DNA of 41,387 bases from a virus. The position numbers were made by a program, and so were the translations under genes. Positions 2,597-31,025 of the stretch are shown piece after piece; the stretch's first letter is position 1, and each line of letters begins with the position of its first letter. The notes beneath the pieces were generated by a model that was not told the DNA's origin, made no database searches, and saw only the letters and a list, made by a program, of their open reading frames with translations. The stretch spans positions 1 to 41,387 of IMG/VR virus record IMGVR_UViG_3300025652_000160; one strand, given 5' to 3'.

Positions 2597-4753
2597 CTAA
2601 GGCAGGTAAATGTCTCCCTGCACTATCTTATAGTCTATACGATCAATTATTAGATCACACACAGACCCAGAGCTATTTGTCATCTTTATTTTTATCTTCG
2701 GGTTTCCGCTAATACCCTGCGCAAATGTTGCGGCGCTGTCTGTTTTGAAAATGTAGTCTACCCATTTGCCATCCTTTGACTCAATTACCGGAGTAAACTG
2801 AAATTCAGCAAATAGGCCCTCAATGACAAACTGAATATCAATCGACTCTGACGTTTTCAGTCTTATAAATATCAGGAACGTTTCACCATCAATGGATGTT
2901 GGTCCCATGTCTGACATGTTCCTTTGAATAACATACTCAGTAGAGTCTGATGGCAGGCCTGTTATGCTCGCGGATGTAGTGCCTGTAAGCACATCCACAC
3001 TTGTTGTGGTTGTAGTTATCGTAAGTGCAGATGTAACTAGCTCCGTGAAGTTTGCGCCCGCCCCAAAATCCCAGTCGGCAGAAAGAGACTCATCGCACCA
3101 AGAATTGAACTCCGCACTGATTGTGGCGTTCGGGGTTGACTCTAAAAACTTAAGTTCGTCTACTCCCCCCGTAGTTGTAGACATCACGATATTAGATAAA
3201 GATACGTCGCAATTCTTAGTGACGACTAGAGATCCGTTTCTTAATGTAACAGAGTCCATAACAACGAAAGCAGATCCAGTTATAGCGTTTACAAAGTTAA
3301 AATTTGATGTGTGTGAGTTATTAAGCCTAAGATACTGATCCTTGACGACTATCAGCGTTTTTAAGTCCCTGGCTGGACCGGAGATAACTGTACCGTACGT
3401 CTCAATAAACGAAGTTGACGGCGAGGGGAAAAGCTCAAGCGTACCACCACCTATAAAATTAATAGACTGTGTTGTTGTGCATTTTATCATCACAGGGGCT
3501 TCGTTGCTTTCCCACCACACTTTTTTGAAAGTTATGTTTTTGCTTTCATTTATATCAAAAACGCCGCAATGGTCCCACTGCTCAAACGTCATATTTTCGA
3601 AGCTGACCCCATCACAATCATTGATAACGTTTGCGAAATCCGCAGCATCATAACGGCTGGGTGCATCGCTACCTCTTGAATCATTCCCCACAAACTCAAA
3701 GTTATTTACATTATCCAGATTTACGCCACTGCTTTGGAATTCAATATCCCTAGCCGAACCGTAAAACAACTCACTCATAACAAGAGCATCTTTTCCAGTA
3801 TTAAATCTAATATCATAAAGCTCAATAGGATTAGTCAGAGCTACTTTTATACACTGCCCAACACCCGAAAAATCAAAATGCTCTATCCTAGATTTCTCCC
3901 TAACAATGCCGCCGACTTGCACATCAATTGCCGGAGTTGCGGGGTCTACCGGTACAGTTGTGAGCGAGTTAGGCGAGTCAGATTGCAACCTAAATTTACT
4001 GCTTATTACTACAGGGGTAAGGAAGTTTTGAGGTGAAGATAATACCGGCGTTCTAGTTTGTGCGAGTACCATGCTCAGTATAACTGCCGCGTCATTTGAG
4101 TTGGTTAGCCCGTAGCACAGGGGTTCAGATAGGTACTCCCCTCTTAGTACAGCAACATGAGTCCCACCATCTAGCGCGTGGTTAGCTCCGTAATAATTTG
4201 GTGCCACAGTGCCGTCGATAACATCGCCATCGGTCGCGGCTTGGGCTACGGTTTTGATTATGTATGGTGCACCACCTTCTTTTGAGGTTGTGTTGTTTAC
4301 GACAACGTTAACTTCTCTGTCTTCGTAGACAGACCAGTCAACAGTCCCGACGTTTAATGATGTAGCGCCAACAAGGTTCGAAATATCAGCAAACTCTGCA
4401 GATAATTGCGGAACTCTAGCACCCTCAATTAAATAGAACTTATCCTCATCACCTCCAACCCATGTGCCGGATGTTGTAAAAGGAAGTTCGCCAACTTTCG
4501 GGGCGTATCGCGAACCGCTTTCATCAACAGTTTTTACGTTATCCAGCGCAGTGAAAACGATACCGCCGGCGTAGGCAATCGGCGGGATATAGCCTAGCTT
4601 CTTAAGCCTTCCGTTTAGCGTATCCGAAGTATCGCCAAGCCTTGTGATAGTGGTATCTGTAGCACCACCAGCCAATGTTTTTGAATTTGCTACAATGCTT
4701 GTGGTTTGCAAATCAATTTCTGCATTATCGAAATCTGTAGTTGTTAGCGCCAC
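2597..4753 (-). CDS. Tailspike / tail fibre protein with beta-helix
   Basis: A 718-residue protein with a GTG start preceded by GAGGG. Residues 1-100 (TLNGRLKKLGYIPP, then AYAGGIVFTALDNVKTV and PFTTSGTWVGGDEDKFYLIE) resemble the particle-binding N-terminal region of tailspikes. Residues about 180-540 are repetitive short strands with N, D and F ladder positions (FENMTFEQWDHCGV, ITFKKVWWESNEA), typical of a right-handed beta-helix that binds or cleaves surface polysaccharide. Residues about 560-718 look like a jelly-roll or carbohydrate-binding domain. It follows the J-like tip gene as the last late gene, the usual place for a receptor-binding protein. Enzymatic activity is not shown. Confidence 0.8.
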   Translation of the reverse strand: MALTTTDFDNAEIDLQTTSIVANSKTLAGGATDTTITRLGDTSDTLNGRLKKLGYIPPIAYAGGIVFTALDNVKTVDESGSRYAPKVGELPFTTSGTWVGGDEDKFYLIEGARVPQLSAEFADISNLVGATSLNVGTVDWSVYEDREVNVVVNNTTSKEGGAPYIIKTVAQAATDGDVIDGTVAPNYYGANHALDGGTHVAVLRGEYLSEPLCYGLTNSNDAAVILSMVLAQTRTPVLSSPQNFLTPVVISSKFRLQSDSPNSLTTVPVDPATPAIDVQVGGIVREKSRIEHFDFSGVGQCIKVALTNPIELYDIRFNTGKDALVMSELFYGSARDIEFQSSGVNLDNVNNFEFVGNDSRGSDAPSRYDAADFANVINDCDGVSFENMTFEQWDHCGVFDINESKNITFKKVWWESNEAPVMIKCTTTQSINFIGGGTLELFPSPSTSFIETYGTVISGPARDLKTLIVVKDQYLRLNNSHTSNFNFVNAITGSAFVVMDSVTLRNGSLVVTKNCDVSLSNIVMSTTTGGVDELKFLESTPNATISAEFNSWCDESLSADWDFGAGANFTELVTSALTITTTTTSVDVLTGTTSASITGLPSDSTEYVIQRNMSDMGPTSIDGETFLIFIRLKTSESIDIQFVIEGLFAEFQFTPVIESKDGKWVDYIFKTDSAATFAQGISGNPKIKIKMTNSSGSVCDLIIDRIDYKIVQGDIYLP

Positions 4754-4803
4754 GGCTTAACCCTCAATTAGTTTATTCAATTGTATCACAATGCATTTTA
4801 GCG

Positions 4804-7374
4804 CTAATCAATCCACAACTCCTCATCAATCCACGGCTCTCCGTCGATCCAGTTAACTACATCGCTATCATTACCATAATAGCGCCCATCGTAATTAATT
4901 CCCGTTACTGAAACGGCCTCTGGATTCGATCTGTCAACGTCGGTAATGATGTAATATTCAGCGCCGGCCCTGTCATCAGTGGAGAACGTGAACTTAGTAC
5001 GCTCTTCCGCGTCGCCCGTATAGACATCTTCAATTGGCAATGAGGCCAACAGAACATTTATGGTGGTATTTGACGCGTTTGGATTACTGCACGCTATGCC
5101 TTGAATTGATCCGTCACGTTTGCGAAGCGTTATAGAATGCGCTTCACCATCGGTAAAAGTTACAGGCTGGCTAAGTGTTAGAACTAGGCCGCTAATAAAA
5201 ACAATCTCGCCATTTTCCGGTGAAGCCTTAGTATCATCAGTGACGCCAACAACATCACCAGTGGATAACAATTGACCCTCTGCGGTGAATGTATCGTTTA
5301 GCGTTAAGCGCTGATACTTGAGCTTGTTGAATGCGCGCCATGCCAGCCAATATGCTTGCTCATAATTCCTTACGCCTAACGACTCAATTTTTCTTGGCGT
5401 TATGGCGCCTGTACTTGGTATCGATATAATCGCCTGCTCATTGGTTTCTGGATCTATATAGGTAAACTCTACTCCGTCGTTAATAGAGTCAGATTTAAAC
5501 GAGCGCGTAATTGTTTGCTGATTGGGTATTTTGGTTCGATGGCAAAATATAGTTGAGGGCGACTCTGGTCTTTCAAAGTCGACAGTGATTACACCGCGCC
5601 GTCGTATTGACTGACAAAAAACGGCTTTAGATATTATTTCGCAAGTATCCTGAAAGCTAACTTGGTCGCTATCAAAAGTATAATTAAACTCTGCAGCTCT
5701 AGAGTCACCAAAATAATCAACTATCTCGTTATATTTTGCTGCAATATCCGCATTGTTCAGCTCCCATTGCGCGCGCCGTCCAATCTTGTCGCTCAATGCC
5801 GCGTAAACGTAATAATCAACAAATCGACTAGTAACAGCGAGGCCGCCGGCAACGCCAGAATCGCTTATGATCGGGAGCTTTCTCTGCCAGTCTACGTTTA
5901 GTTTTCGCTCTTTTATTTGTGAGGCTCTTTGGCTCTGTAAAACCCTAGTTTGAACAGTTGTAACATTGCCGAAATCAATATCGCCGATGCTTTTTGTTGA
6001 GTATAGGGCGTCAATAGTCAAATCTTGAAGCTGCGCGCCTTCTATCCTGTCAGTGACGCGCCTAGCTCTGACAAGGATATTGCCTAAAAACGGAACCGCA
6101 ACTTCAGTTGTGGAGCCTATTTTATCCCGAGTTTGCCCAGTGATTGTTTTTAATATTCCAACCGACCAATCGCCAATAATAGAACCGGAATCATCCGCTT
6201 GAGCGTACTGAATTGCGTACTGAATTGATATTATGCCGCCGGCGTCGCTAATTAGCCCGCTGGCAGCTAAATTAATATAGAACCCATTGAGTGATCCAAC
6301 CAACAAAAATGGGCCTGCATAGGTAATGTCTGTGTCGGATGGTGACATTGAGCCATCTAGAGTATTCCTAGATAGATCGTTTATTAGCCCCCAGTTCACA
6401 TTAACTGTTTCCGCCCCTCCACCGGTTACAGATACCAGCTCGACGGTATCATCAGCTATTGCGTCAATCTTATATTGCCCGCTCAGTAAATAATCTAATT
6501 CAGTTACGCTATCTATAACGCGTAAATCGAGATCAATTTCGTCACCGACTTCAAAATAATCTGTGAATTTATAACCAAAGCCTGGAGGCCTAGTTAATAG
6601 GCCCGCCTCTGCTCCTGTTGCAGTAGATGCAGATACGTATCCATCCTGAAACAACAATGACAAGTCAGATATTGTCTCAAGTACCCTTCCGCCGTCGACT
6701 TCATTGGATCGCCTCACAATCTGAACGCGCTCTTGAAACGAATCCCCGAAGGTGTATTCAGGCGTAAGAGTGTTATTTGGTGATGTGTACGGCGCATAAA
6801 ACTGAGCGCCTGAGCCATCCATTATTTCTATTGGTGTATCGCCATCCCTTACTGACGATGGAATACCTGAGCCAACGGATACGGACATGTATGAATATTC
6901 GACTTCTACATTATCAACCCACTTTCGGTAGGGTAGTTGTATGAGAGAAGGCACCGAATTAACCTTGCCGGCTATATCCTCGATACGTTTTAATGGGCGC
7001 TCCCTATTTGTGCGCGCTGAAAGTGAGTTGTTTGATGAGGCGCCTAAATCCTCAGCCGTGGGTATATTTGAGCTTTGCGTGTATGCATAAATAGCCGACG
7101 CCACGGAAAGTATCAGCGAAATTACCACAAGAGCAGTTCCGGCTGGGGTTTCTACAACCGTAAATTCTCCGCTTTCGGCCGTCATTAATTCGCGATCTCT
7201 GCGGTCTATTTCCGCATCAATAGAGCATCTTGAAGGGTGGCAGTTGAACGCATCGAAGGGGAATTTTATAGAGCCGTCGTCATTGCAAACAGCATCGATT
7301 AGAGACCGAGGCTTTAATATGTACGCAGGTTGGCCGATTCTGATAACGTGAACGATCAATTCTTTTTTAAACAT
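4804..7374 (-). CDS. Tail tip attachment protein (J-like host-specificity protein)
   Basis: An 856-residue central tail-hub protein. The N-terminus carries the basic tip segment and one hydrophobic stretch (ALVVISLILSVASAIYAYT, about 80-98) seen in lambda J-family proteins, followed by the conserved NSLSARTNRERPLKRIEDIAGKV region. The middle contains fibronectin-like beta modules. The region QRKLPIISDSGVAGGLAVTSRFVDY onward is the receptor-proximal part shared by TipJ proteins. The start overlaps the NlpC/P60 gene by 8 bases, in the classical M-L-K-J order. It is shorter than lambda J (1132 residues). A separate lambda I-like gene was not found. Confidence 0.85.
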   Translation of the reverse strand: MFKKELIVHVIRIGQPAYILKPRSLIDAVCNDDGSIKFPFDAFNCHPSRCSIDAEIDRRDRELMTAESGEFTVVETPAGTALVVISLILSVASAIYAYTQSSNIPTAEDLGASSNNSLSARTNRERPLKRIEDIAGKVNSVPSLIQLPYRKWVDNVEVEYSYMSVSVGSGIPSSVRDGDTPIEIMDGSGAQFYAPYTSPNNTLTPEYTFGDSFQERVQIVRRSNEVDGGRVLETISDLSLLFQDGYVSASTATGAEAGLLTRPPGFGYKFTDYFEVGDEIDLDLRVIDSVTELDYLLSGQYKIDAIADDTVELVSVTGGGAETVNVNWGLINDLSRNTLDGSMSPSDTDITYAGPFLLVGSLNGFYINLAASGLISDAGGIISIQYAIQYAQADDSGSIIGDWSVGILKTITGQTRDKIGSTTEVAVPFLGNILVRARRVTDRIEGAQLQDLTIDALYSTKSIGDIDFGNVTTVQTRVLQSQRASQIKERKLNVDWQRKLPIISDSGVAGGLAVTSRFVDYYVYAALSDKIGRRAQWELNNADIAAKYNEIVDYFGDSRAAEFNYTFDSDQVSFQDTCEIISKAVFCQSIRRRGVITVDFERPESPSTIFCHRTKIPNQQTITRSFKSDSINDGVEFTYIDPETNEQAIISIPSTGAITPRKIESLGVRNYEQAYWLAWRAFNKLKYQRLTLNDTFTAEGQLLSTGDVVGVTDDTKASPENGEIVFISGLVLTLSQPVTFTDGEAHSITLRKRDGSIQGIACSNPNASNTTINVLLASLPIEDVYTGDAEERTKFTFSTDDRAGAEYYIITDVDRSNPEAVSVTGINYDGRYYGNDSDVVNWIDGEPWIDEELWID

Positions 7375-28299: not shown

Positions 28300-28884
28300 T
28301 TAGATCATCTTTTCGTAAAGTCTTGTCATTGCGCGGCACCATGAAGCCATAGCCCTAACTTCATCCTTTGTTGGCTTTGGTAATTCGCCGCAATCTTCTA
28401 GCCGCTTCATCTTTTCGACCTGAAATAGCCAGTGTTTGCCGTGGCGCTTAATTAATCCACGTCGGTAGTTGTATTCCTCTCCACCCTTAAAACAGTTGTC
28501 GTGTGTACTCTGGCCGTGAAGGTTGGCGTGAAAGAAGGTTAGCCAGCTAGTTCCGTACTTGCTGCCTCGATGTACTAAGTGGCCCGCCTCTTGAACTGGC
28601 CCGCCTCCAGATATGCATTTCCCGTAAAATAACCGGTCATACGTGCATATCAGCTTATTGAAATCAATTTGGGCCTTACCGCAAGCCTGCCTTAATGTCT
28701 CGATAGCAAGCTTGTCCTGCTTATGCTTTTCCTTGATTGTCCTGCAGGCCTTAGCCTTATTTTTTTCCCTAGCCATGGCAGCCAGACACCCAATAGAGCA
28801 AAAGCCTTTCTTTTCGACTATATCCGTGCATTTAGCTGCGGGTTTTAGCTCGACTGTTTTGCATTGCTTGCATCGTCTAGACAC
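28300..28884 (-). CDS. ninG: NinG-family recombination protein (Rap-like)
   Basis: A 194-residue protein with a GTG start overlapping the preceding stop (TAGTG). The N-terminal zinc site is C5-x2-C8 with C29-x3-C33. The core has the NinG pattern: LRQACGKAQIDFNKLICTYDRLFYGKCISGGG, then QEAGHLVHRGSKYGTSWLTFFHANLHGQSTHDNCFKGG and YRRGLIKRHGKHWLFQVE. In lambda this protein (Rap) is a junction-targeting endonuclease in recombination. The usual CxxC before GHxxxxG reads CISGGG here, so one cysteine is missing. Position after the ninB and methyltransferase genes matches a nin region. Confidence 0.87.
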   Translation of the reverse strand: MSRRCKQCKTVELKPAAKCTDIVEKKGFCSIGCLAAMAREKNKAKACRTIKEKHKQDKLAIETLRQACGKAQIDFNKLICTYDRLFYGKCISGGGPVQEAGHLVHRGSKYGTSWLTFFHANLHGQSTHDNCFKGGEEYNYRRGLIKRHGKHWLFQVEKMKRLEDCGELPKPTKDEVRAMASWCRAMTRLYEKMI

Positions 28885-29113: not shown

Positions 29114-29190
29114 TGGTGCGTATGACAGGACTCGAACCTGCGACAGTCTGATTGGAAATCAGGTGATCATACCAACTGATCTACATACGC
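29114..29190 (-). tRNA. tRNA-Gly (anticodon TCC)
   Basis: A complete cloverleaf on the minus strand with encoded CCA: acceptor GCGTATG/CATACGC (7 bp), D stem GATC/GATC with an AGTTGGTAT loop, anticodon stem CCTGA/TCAGA (4 pairs plus a C-A mismatch at 27-43), loop TTTCCAA with anticodon TCC, a 5-nt variable loop, T stem GCAGG/CCTGT (one G-U) and T-loop TTCGAGT. The anticodon reads GGA. The discriminator base is A, unlike the U usual in bacterial tRNA-Gly. It lies 3' of a long structured non-coding stretch. Confidence 0.93.
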
Positions 29191-29191
29191 T

Positions 29192-29838
29192 TGATAGCTA
29201 GGCCACCAACCCGAGCGATTATGGTGATAGTGCTAAGGCTGGAGCTGTAATCCCAGCATGCGCAGCAGTCCTGAAATCAGGGATACGCTTTTGATCTGCT
29301 CTTGTCATTAGCCGGTCAGCTTAATCCAGCATTCTTAACACTGAGAAACGCCATAATCATGACGCTTGACAGTGGCCACTCGAAAATACTCGCCGCGAAT
29401 GGCTTCGGCGTCTTACGCGCCAGTGCATTCAATACCGCACCGCCAGGAAGGTATTAAATACACTGAAGATTGCTGCAGCTACGGAATCGAACCGCCTATA
29501 CATGTGCGCTGCAAGTTGGGGTACGCGCGCTCAAGGGTTAATTTATCTAGAATTTCACCCCCTCACTATCCCCTACCATCCCTTTTTGGTTTTACCGCAA
29601 CAATCTTCAGTGCCCCCTCATATACCGGAAGGGGTCGGTTATCTCAGTTGTATTCGCAATGCTATCGCCTTCAAAACCTCAAGAATTGCGCGCATAAAAC
29701 ATTGGCATATGATTCATTCTCTAATCTTATAGATTTCGGCTCTATAAGGCATTGCGACTGTTTTACCGACTGAAGCCATAATATAAAGGCTAGCCATAAA
29801 ATAATAATATCCAATAAGTCCCCCTCCAATCCCTCTGT
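29192..29838 (-). ncRNA. Large structured non-coding RNA candidate next to tRNA-Gly
   Basis: About 650 bases between ninB and tRNA-Gly hold no plausible minus-strand gene but many helices: a 16-bp long-range stem (29597-29612 with 29461-29476); CGCAATGC/GCATTGCG (29749-29756 with 29655-29662) stacked on the hairpin 29726-29748; hairpin 29428-29458 (9 bp); CACTG/CAGTG (29339-29343 with 29370-29374) enclosing hairpin 29349-29364; hairpin 29238-29257; and a tRNA-like T-loop hairpin (29482-29494). A promoter-like block lies at its 5' end. Size, complexity and tRNA linkage recall GOLLD and ROOL RNAs of phages; I cannot confirm membership. Plus-strand open frames here lack coding character. Confidence 0.5.
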
Positions 29839-29842
29839 GTAG

Positions 29843-29875
29843 TGTCATAATACACACTTTAATATACATTTACAC
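29843..29875 (-). promoter_or_regulatory. Promoter-like block, copy 1 (structured RNA and tRNA)
   Basis: A 33-bp block ending GTGTGTATTATGACA on the minus strand, shared with 33128-33160 (15 bp identical at this end, most other positions alike). TATTAT or TATATT could be the -10. It overlaps the last codons of ninB and points into the structured RNA. Confidence 0.5.
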
Positions 29876-30382
29876 CACTTTATTTGTCATTTCTGGATAT
29901 TCTTCATAAGTTTTTGTTTTGTCGTCACTCCATGGAATTTTATTCTCTGCGCCGATCACATTGACGAACTCGATAGCCCAGCCCATTTCTTTTGCTGTGA
30001 ATAGCGAGCTAGACGCCCTCAGCATTAACGGCATCATAGACACCGGCTCAATGGCCCACGTGCTAGGCCTGGTTAACACTTTACCTTGCGCTCTTAATTC
30101 AGACTCGAACCACACAATAATAAAAGCTTTCGCTACATCAAAGGCGCTGCCAGGCTGCTCTGCAAAGTTAACCTTACGGCCTTCGTATTCAATAACCCCG
30201 AATCGCGCAATTTCGGTAATTTTCGCATTAAAAGCCTTTTCTTGATCCCGCTTTTTTGACGGCCTCTGTATGCAAATCTCAATGCCACGGCCATCGCAAT
30301 ATTTTGTAATTGCACGAGACATTGCGGCACCCTGGGCGTCAACTTCTGCGCGGGTATTTGCCGTGAAGCTAGGCATTGTCAT
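29870..30382 (-). CDS. ninB: NinB-family recombination protein (lambda Orf-like)
   Basis: About 170 residues. The pattern IQRPSKKRDQEKAFNAKITEIARF, then a middle with IIVWFESELRAQGKV, and the C-terminal SSSLFTAKEMGWAIEFVNVIGAENKIPWSDD match NinB (Y/L-x-x-x-E-M-x-x-x-I-E-F...AE...WS). In lambda it is a recombination mediator that helps load annealing or strand-exchange proteins on SSB-coated DNA. The start is uncertain: ATGs lie at 30391, 30382 and 30376, all overlapping the methyltransferase-like gene, and none has a perfect ribosome site. Confidence 0.78.
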   Translation of the reverse strand: MTMPSFTANTRAEVDAQGAAMSRAITKYCDGRGIEICIQRPSKKRDQEKAFNAKITEIARFGVIEYEGRKVNFAEQPGSAFDVAKAFIIVWFESELRAQGKVLTRPSTWAIEPVSMMPLMLRASSSLFTAKEMGWAIEFVNVIGAENKIPWSDDKTKTYEEYPEMTNKVV

Positions 30383-31025
30383 CCATTCCATATTTCTCAA
30401 ATACAGCTTGCGCGAAACCTCTTGGGGTTGCTGACCTTATATTTTTTGTCTTCAATGATTTTCCACCGAGCTTATTGTGTGTATCTGAATAGCCAGGTTT
30501 GCAAAATACAGGCTTTAGCGCTGGAAGCTCAAAGCCACCACCTGACCATAGGCATGTTTTCTTGGGGTATGCGTCTCTAGGGGCTATATATTCAGGCCAT
30601 TCAGGATGCAAGTCATCCTCTGGCAAATACCCCCCAAAATCAGACGGATCGAATGTAAAGTTAGGCTTACCGAATATTGAGCTAAAAACTGAAACGGGAT
30701 TCTCAAAGAACCACGGCGCACCCGACAGCTCTCCTACCATCCTGCATTGTTCAGCAATCAAAGCCGCTTTTGCTTGAAAATTCTTATCCTTAAGCCTTTT
30801 GTTCTCGAAATGCGCAGCGCCGCTAACTGCAACATCGGTGCACGGAGGGAACCCAGCAACAAAGAAAACGCCACCCTTTATTGCTCGCCGAATATCAGGG
30901 ATCATATCCAATATTGTACCGTTATCACTCCTCTGAGGATCTACGTGAAGCGCCTTGTATCCTGCATCGCGCCAAGGTTTTGTAAAAATCCCAGTGTAAT
31001 CACATAGGCTAATTATTGTTTTCAT
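30369..31025 (-). CDS. C5-cytosine DNA methyltransferase-like protein
   Basis: A 218-residue protein. The Pro-Cys catalytic motif IV is GFPPCTDVA (C62), and the ENV-like motif VI appears as WFFENPVS (E108, N109). An SAM-site-like start MKTIISLCDYTGIFTKPWRDAGY with HVDP (D29) and the ending TPRGFAQAVFEKYG (motif X-like) complete the order. It is short for a full m5C methyltransferase (over 300 residues), with a reduced target-recognition region. Likely role: protection of phage DNA from restriction, or modification during replication. It ends overlapping ninB. Confidence 0.75.
   Translation of the reverse strand: MKTIISLCDYTGIFTKPWRDAGYKALHVDPQRSDNGTILDMIPDIRRAIKGGVFFVAGFPPCTDVAVSGAAHFENKRLKDKNFQAKAALIAEQCRMVGELSGAPWFFENPVSVFSSIFGKPNFTFDPSDFGGYLPEDDLHPEWPEYIAPRDAYPKKTCLWSGGGFELPALKPVFCKPGYSDTHNKLGGKSLKTKNIRSATPRGFAQAVFEKYGMDDNA

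Follow-up and report, generated by a model that had tools for sequence, protein, structure and literature searches.

A conserved family of phage RNAs that resemble tRNA and bear an inserted extra arm

The viral locus analysed here is shown by comparative sequence analysis to encode a member of a conserved family of tRNA-like RNAs of about 130–150 nt, which carry an extra arm between the D-arm and an anticodon-like arm and look like a tRNA mimic carried by phages as an accessory. That this is a real structured RNA is almost certain. The window, by which we mean the whole stretch of DNA under study (41,387 nt, IMG/VR record IMGVR_UViG_3300025652_000160), has the gene plan of a siphophage, with genes for an antirepressor, an O-like replication protein, a weak NinB-like protein, NinG, terminase, portal, capsid, tape measure and tail. 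A total of 679 non-coding bases separate the NinB-like gene from a tRNA-Gly gene, both on the minus strand, and the RNA is found between them, 279 nt from the tRNA-Gly (Table 1). The initial annotation described positions 29192–29838 as devoid of any plausible gene and ending at a tRNA. Both statements hold, the former for 29192–29869, where a protein-coding reading was rejected because neither of the two plus-strand open reading frames (29366–29773 and 29502–29732) matches a PHROG family, and the latter because the tRNA-Gly gene directly adjoins the region. The promoter-like block that was said to open the region amounts to a single 10/12 match (29861–29890, minus strand), where shuffled sequences yield 2.0 such matches by chance.

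Table 1. Features of the locus, all on the minus strand and listed in its 5' to 3' direction
Feature	Position	Strand	Basis or remark
NinB-like gene, upstream of the RNA	29870–30400	-	Weak match to PHROG 72, E 0.0055
Upstream flank with the proposed stacked junction (29655–29756)	29613–29762	-	z -2.2; 5 of 200 shuffles fold equally well
tRNA-like RNA, conserved core	29461–29612 (reads 29612 to 29461)	-	Covariance-model match 29469–29601; fold z -3.8; BLAST homologues
P1 acceptor-like stem, 5' strand, CACTGAAGATTGTTGC	29597–29612	-	16-nt inverted repeat; two-sided P1 changes in homologues
D-arm-like hairpin ACC-AAAAAGGGAT-GGT, G18G19-like GG in loop	29575–29590	-	D-loop GG in alignments A1 and A2
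Extra arm P3	29518–29573	-	Outer pairs vary GC/CG/UA/AU across homologues; GNGCGUA nearly invariant
P3 outer 4 bp	29570–29573 with 29518–29521	-	
P3 internal loop, ATAG opposite GCGCGCGTA	29566–29569 opposite 29522–29530	-	Followed by inner helix and apical loop
Anticodon-arm-like hairpin ACTTG-CAGCGCA-CATGT	29500–29516; 7-nt loop 29505–29511	-	
T-arm, loop TTCGATT (GGTTCGATTCC)	29481–29496	-	T-stem 98–100% paired, with two-sided changes
P1 acceptor-like stem, 3' strand, GCAGCAATCTTCAGTG	29461–29476	-	Inverted repeat
Hairpin immediately downstream of the RNA	29421–29465	-	Inverted repeat I2, 88%
tRNA-Gly (TCC), next downstream on the RNA's strand	29114–29190	-	ARAGORN and Rfam RF00005, 64.6 bits
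NinG-like gene, downstream of tRNA-Gly	28300–28884	-	Pfam NinG 5.9e-10; PHROG 171

On the minus strand, the RNA reads in the order P1, D-arm, P3, the hairpin with the 7-nt loop CAGCGCA, T-arm and P1'. The two P1 strands form 16 bp and are 94% complementary, exactly as the long-range stem had been placed from the sequence. The tRNA-like T-loop reported at the same time is real as well but not isolated, being part of the T-arm of a complete domain closed by this stem. The inner P3 helix of the window is imperfect, with one G.G mismatch seen by eye. The resemblance to a tRNA extends to an acceptor-like stem, the GG of the D-arm, a 5-bp anticodon-like stem with a 7-nt loop and a 5-bp T-stem with GUUCGANUC. 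The RNA nevertheless differs from a tRNA by an extra arm of ~45–75 nt, an anticodon-like loop (C/U)ANCGCA devoid of U33, an acceptor-like stem of 9–19 bp and, as a rule, the absence of CCA. Indeed, U33 is present in none of the 55 members and CCA at the tRNA position (after a 7-nt acceptor and the discriminator) in only 4 of them; since the acceptor stem is over-long in addition, the RNA should not decode.

P1 exceeds the length of a tRNA acceptor in most lineages, with 16 bp in the window, ~19 in Pusillimonas and 15 in Methylophaga (the lengths outside the window being counted by eye), and a bulged A occurs in P1 of Pseudoalteromonas phage C7 and of the enteric N-leader forms. Members of the HK75/Skate class have a P1 of just ~9–10 bp, which makes it a poor RNase III substrate, and another hairpin precedes it. 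A hairpin GGTAAGAGCA...TGCTCTTATC lies within ~90 nt upstream of the RNA in five loci of the HK75/Skate/Klebsiella type; it reads GGAGAGAGTA...TACTCTCTTC in one of them (L055), a compensatory change, and the ACAAC in front of it is another potential pairing partner for the 5' strand of P1.

Folding energies place the structure in the core. The whole region folds at -215.8 kcal/mol on the minus strand (z = -2.95, from 20 shuffles only) and has a z of -2.4 on the plus strand. The core, at ~29461–29612, reaches z = -3.8 with none of 200 shuffles as stable, while the 5' flank (29613–29869) and the 3' flank (29191–29460) are both near chance when folded alone (z = -1.1 and -1.2, respectively). Furthermore, BLAST with the region aligns relatives to 29483–29589 only, in the core, and leaves the flanks unmatched. 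Single-sequence folds of the members from phage C7, the Pusillimonas plasmid and the E. coli locus L057 give z values of -3.2 to -5.2 and place P1, D-arm and T-arm alike. The picture of helices spread through an RNA of ~650 bases is thus replaced by one in which the excess stability is confined to the core. As for the stacked junction proposed upstream, the z of its segment is suggestive only and no homologue of it was found, so that it may lie outside the RNA. The flanks could be parts of a longer precursor. On the downstream side, the first arm of the hairpin that follows the RNA takes in the final 5 nt of P1, and the two are possible competing pairings that would define an alternative fold.

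The secondary structure was drawn by hand from few members and evaluated on two alignments, one made with MAFFT from 19 diverse members (A1) and one of 55 members fitted to the covariance model (A2). Two-sided changes were found at 29 of the 36 pairs in A1, with a covariation of 0.567 compared with 0.197 for shuffled and at most 0.126 for slid controls, and at 33 of 36 in A2 (0.675 compared with 0.207 and at most 0.151); compensatory changes, whose absence from homologues was to refute the initial annotation, are present in the core. Because the structure was hand-drawn and A2 model-fitted, the pairing percentages lean towards the structure, but the margin over the slid controls far exceeds what a bias of this sort should give. 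The anticodon-like helix is paired at 99.6% with two-sided changes at 5/5 pairs, and GC, CG, UA and AU all occur at one position of the outer P3 helix.

While the stems vary, the letters of the elbow are kept: the GG of the D-loop and a T-loop UUCRANY recur throughout A1 and A2. Nearly invariant across members are the D-loop GG, the NNAG of P3 facing GNGCGUA (a few members deviate in NNAG), the loop (C/U)ANCGCA and the T-arm GUUCGANUC. The letters of GCGUA, ANCGCA and the T-loop sat in most of the search patterns, so that their invariance is partly by construction; this does not apply to the D-loop GG, and the motifs are kept in members recovered without selection for them, namely the BLAST-derived ones and, among 11 large-phage matches to a D-arm pattern, 10. 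The GCG of P3 could pair with the CGC of the anticodon-like loop in 52–53 of the 53 distinct sequences, one member (L301) breaking a single pair; as both triplets are nearly invariant, covariation neither supports nor refutes this contact. An alternative kissing register, UGCG with CGCA, fits fewer members and was rejected. In the members inspected, the outer P3 helix (4 bp), the anticodon-like stem (5 bp) and the distance from GCGUA to the loop (10 nt) have constant lengths, which would suit two helices lying side by side with touching loops.

The 678-base region used as a BLAST query retrieved phage C7 and a Pusillimonas plasmid. The branch of the window is thinly sampled, given that its own sequence matches only 2 of 50,697 annotated phage records by BLAST, both of phage C7. 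A search pattern built from the window, C7 and Pusillimonas led to 50 IMG/VR contigs that share this architecture and are all enteric-like. An enteric member used in turn as query brought up 92 phage records, with E. coli phage HK75 and the Skatevirus group among them. The RNA is present in 170 of 5,426 complete E. coli genomes (~3%), in lambdoid prophages and HK75, a frequency that implies that lambdoid phages can do without it. Further scans extended the family to Klebsiella and Enterobacter plasmid records, Rosenbergiella, Methylophaga and large metagenomic phages (contigs up to 354 kb), and virulent Salmonella phages also carry homologues; carriers thus include temperate, virulent and very large phages. 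By BLAST against annotated phages, the members from large phages and of the L085 type have no convincing full-length annotated relative, save the Salmonella phages reached via L085. A survey of 274 genomes of the class gave one match, its first-look filter being crowded by tRNAs and hence uninformative on absence.

Among the relatives of the window identified through their methyltransferase, none of 80 loci has the RNA. In the sister phage of this set (L220, methyltransferase 77% identical), the tRNA-Gly is retained and is preceded at positions 4700–5215 by a long non-coding stretch unlike that of the window, with a T-arm-like hairpin in front of the same tRNA-Gly; the covariance model does not match this stretch. 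Some records deserve a separate mention. A Cellvibrionaceae MAG contig matches the E. coli prophage form letter for letter in the part inspected, probably because the MAG is contaminated. Pattern matches in two Gemmatimonadota MAGs resemble the 3' end of tmRNA more than they resemble members, and two contigs from Bathyarchaeota MAGs have in common a conserved GCGCGTA...GTTCGAATC stretch, which the model rejects. The RNA is misannotated as 'polyubiquitin-A' in the E. coli phages vB_EcoP-611R6 and 683R2 (H4/H5), and partly annotated as a tRNA-Ser in one Skatevirus.

The covariance model, R1, was built from 19 seeds. It matches the window's own record with 98.4 bits (E 4.6e-24), a score obtained partly by construction as the window is one of the seeds; the C7 and Pusillimonas relatives were first found by BLAST, independently of R1. 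Besides this match, the window carries P1, the D-arm, P3 with GNGCGUA, the (C/U)ANCGCA hairpin and the T-arm. The best-scoring non-members are true tRNAs, with a maximum of 36 bits for a tRNA-Arg(ACG), whereas the lowest accepted member scores 49 bits. tRNA-Arg, including those with NCG anticodons, is prominent among these non-members; an exclusive resemblance to tRNA-Arg was rejected, as tRNA-Thr and tRNA-Pro score similarly. No Rfam 15 family was matched at threshold except tRNA for one member, L085, which passes RF00005 with 34.6 bits over 129 nt (cut-off 29); the element of the window and ten other member loci fall below the gathering cut-off of RF00005. The Rfam covariance-model search proposed from the outset found neither GOLLD nor ROOL in the window by cmscan, at the gathering threshold or at E <= 10, and the alternative then envisaged, that of a new class, survives. 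We know of no described RNA with an inserted arm of this kind. In the open-access literature searched, the RNA was not found described; an earlier description elsewhere is possible.

Several known RNAs share part of this design. T4 RNA C (species 1 RNA) is likewise a stable phage RNA encoded beside tRNA genes with a clear T-arm next to its 3' end, but it scores 17.8 bits under R1, below the 20.3 bits of an ordinary T4 tRNA, lacks the GCGUA and CGCA loops and has another inserted arm. Homology with T4 RNAs C and D is not demonstrable, the score of C being no better than that of true tRNAs. The T4 rnaC locus (L155, positions 1409–1547) has, besides a long inserted hairpin, a perfect T-arm that leads into an acceptor-like 3' end, an arrangement that is analogous and apparently unrelated. 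A tRNA-like head joined to extra RNA also recalls tmRNA, which gives a sub-threshold 12 bits in L057 (RF00023 cut-off 47); ARAGORN finds no tmRNA in the window, and the new RNA, of ~130 nt, has neither a tag reading frame nor an SsrA-like body.

The genomic settings of the RNA are diverse. In one enteric subgroup it caps a stem CTTTGG../..CCAAAG, preceded in several members by a boxA-like sequence, and an N-like reading frame starts 20–30 nt downstream; all eight frames tested in this N-leader group match PHROG 271, 'anti-termination protein N-like'. The leader of L057 is nearly identical to that of lambda from nutL to the stem CTTTGGGG, members of this type having both nutL and the stem base CTTTGGGGTGTG in common with that phage, but the lambda stem, which serves as an RNase III site, is capped by another sequence without tRNA-like features. 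R1 finds no convincing match in the N-leader stem of lambda or in the P22 genome. The HK75 copy belongs to the late leader and is placed between pR'-tR' and the holin gene. In Skatevirus, as in a plasmid prophage of Klebsiella, the RNA runs antisense to the flanking late genes. Elsewhere it neighbours tRNA genes, at 27 nt in C7 (directly after the tRNA, with an intrinsic-terminator-like hairpin downstream of the RNA as judged by eye) and 102 nt in Salmonella phage gmqsjt-1; all large-phage members surveyed are within ~400 nt of tRNA genes, inside tRNA arrays. Around the RNA in five large phages, long inverted repeats, e.g. CCATATTGAAGTACA...TGTATTTCAATATGG, enclose one non-coding unit after another among the tRNAs, as if these units formed an array of stem-enclosed RNAs. 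Such unrelated settings argue for a self-contained unit, and this mobility is easier to reconcile with an independent accessory RNA than with a component of the control of a single operon.

The explanation that we prefer overall, and which we put forward tentatively, is that of a processed, trans-acting tRNA mimic. The RNA would be made within longer phage transcripts and excised via its long double-stranded P1, probably by RNase III where P1 has at least 15 bp and perhaps with the help of tRNA-processing enzymes. Pairing of CGC with the GCG of the P3 internal loop probably hides the anticodon-like loop, and the tRNA elbow (D-loop GG and T-loop GUUCGANUC), together with a fixed non-tRNA surface, would be presented to a tRNA-recognising host factor, which may be held as decoy or tether. 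Leading candidates for this factor would be a tRNA-cleaving, a tRNA-modifying or an RNA-decay enzyme. Action in trans, rather than purely in cis, is probable. The role of decoy or tether of a tRNA-binding factor is a reasonable conjecture that may well prove wrong, and it is unlikely that the factor is specifically a tRNA-targeting defence nuclease. The main rival, a leader element acting in cis within its own transcript, through folding, cleavage by RNase III or control of N translation, and similarly in late leaders, with no free trans RNA, draws on the N-leader subgroup, whose position before the N gene would suit such a role, with an Arg-rich frame 22–28 nt downstream in 11 members and the lambda-like leader of L057. 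We consider it rather unlikely, as the RNA is also found antisense, beside tRNAs and in large-phage tRNA arrays, where a common downstream gene is not apparent, and as the leader of lambda and P22 do without the element.

The remaining explanations are less probable still. The plan of YrlA, in which a long basal stem carries a domain with D- and T-arm features (PMC8394870), resembles that of the present non-decoding RNA and raises the idea of a phage Y-RNA-like tether, whose basal stem would bind one protein and whose tRNA-like head would bind PNPase or another ring nuclease. This is quite improbable in view of the lack of any RF02553 match in the window, and at E <= 10 in L057 and L218, of the absence of a TROVE/Ro60 gene from 15 carrier genomes or records, and of an extra arm and a CGCA loop that are not among the YrlA features in PMC8394870. 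The initial annotation had favoured a single ~650-nt ornate RNA such as GOLLD and ROOL, which are phage-encoded structured RNAs near tRNAs with no assigned function (PMC12286853). Its general idea of a genuine, conserved structured phage RNA is borne out for the core, which often lies near tRNA genes, and the non-coding flanks on both sides, like the long T-arm-bearing stretch before the same tRNA-Gly in the sister phage, would accommodate a larger molecule with the tRNA-like part as one domain. GOLLD and ROOL, however, are much larger, have other structures and give no match, while the conserved unit here is a tRNA mimic that stands alone elsewhere, with flanks devoid of detectable homologues or significant folding energy; we accordingly give this option little credence, slightly less than the Y-RNA-like tether. 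A degenerate or intron-containing tRNA, or an integration relic, might be suggested by the ordinary tRNAs, tRNA-Arg among them, that top the R1 non-members and by the tRNA-Ser annotation mentioned above. It is very improbable, since two-sided changes in all helices, the inserted and anticodon-like arms included, and near-invariant GCGUA and CGCA loops would not have survived in a relic, and since U33 is lost in every member. Finally, strong conservation in intergenic phage DNA would also be expected of a DNA element (cos, pac or a protein-binding site) with merely RNA-like inverted repeats, but the tolerated G-U pairs, the tRNA-specific letters, the RNA-type covariation, the unrelated locations in different genomes and the absence from the lambda leader and P22 make this the least credible reading of all.

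A more daring extension of the trans-acting mimic, which we regard as rather doubtful, would define a new class of counter-defence or host-takeover RNAs, in which a tRNA mimic, its anticodon-like loop held shut by kissing with an inserted arm, is released by RNase III from early or late leaders and ties up a host tRNA-binding enzyme. The role of non-decoding tRNA-like RNAs of phages is a question dating from the stable RNAs C and D of T4. The RNA described here was previously unannotated even in HK75 and in ~3% of the complete E. coli genomes, and its location in N leaders connects it with the RNase III stem of the lambda N leader, a regulatory element of the textbooks. HK75, which is culturable, offers a tractable handle on why phages carry such RNAs.
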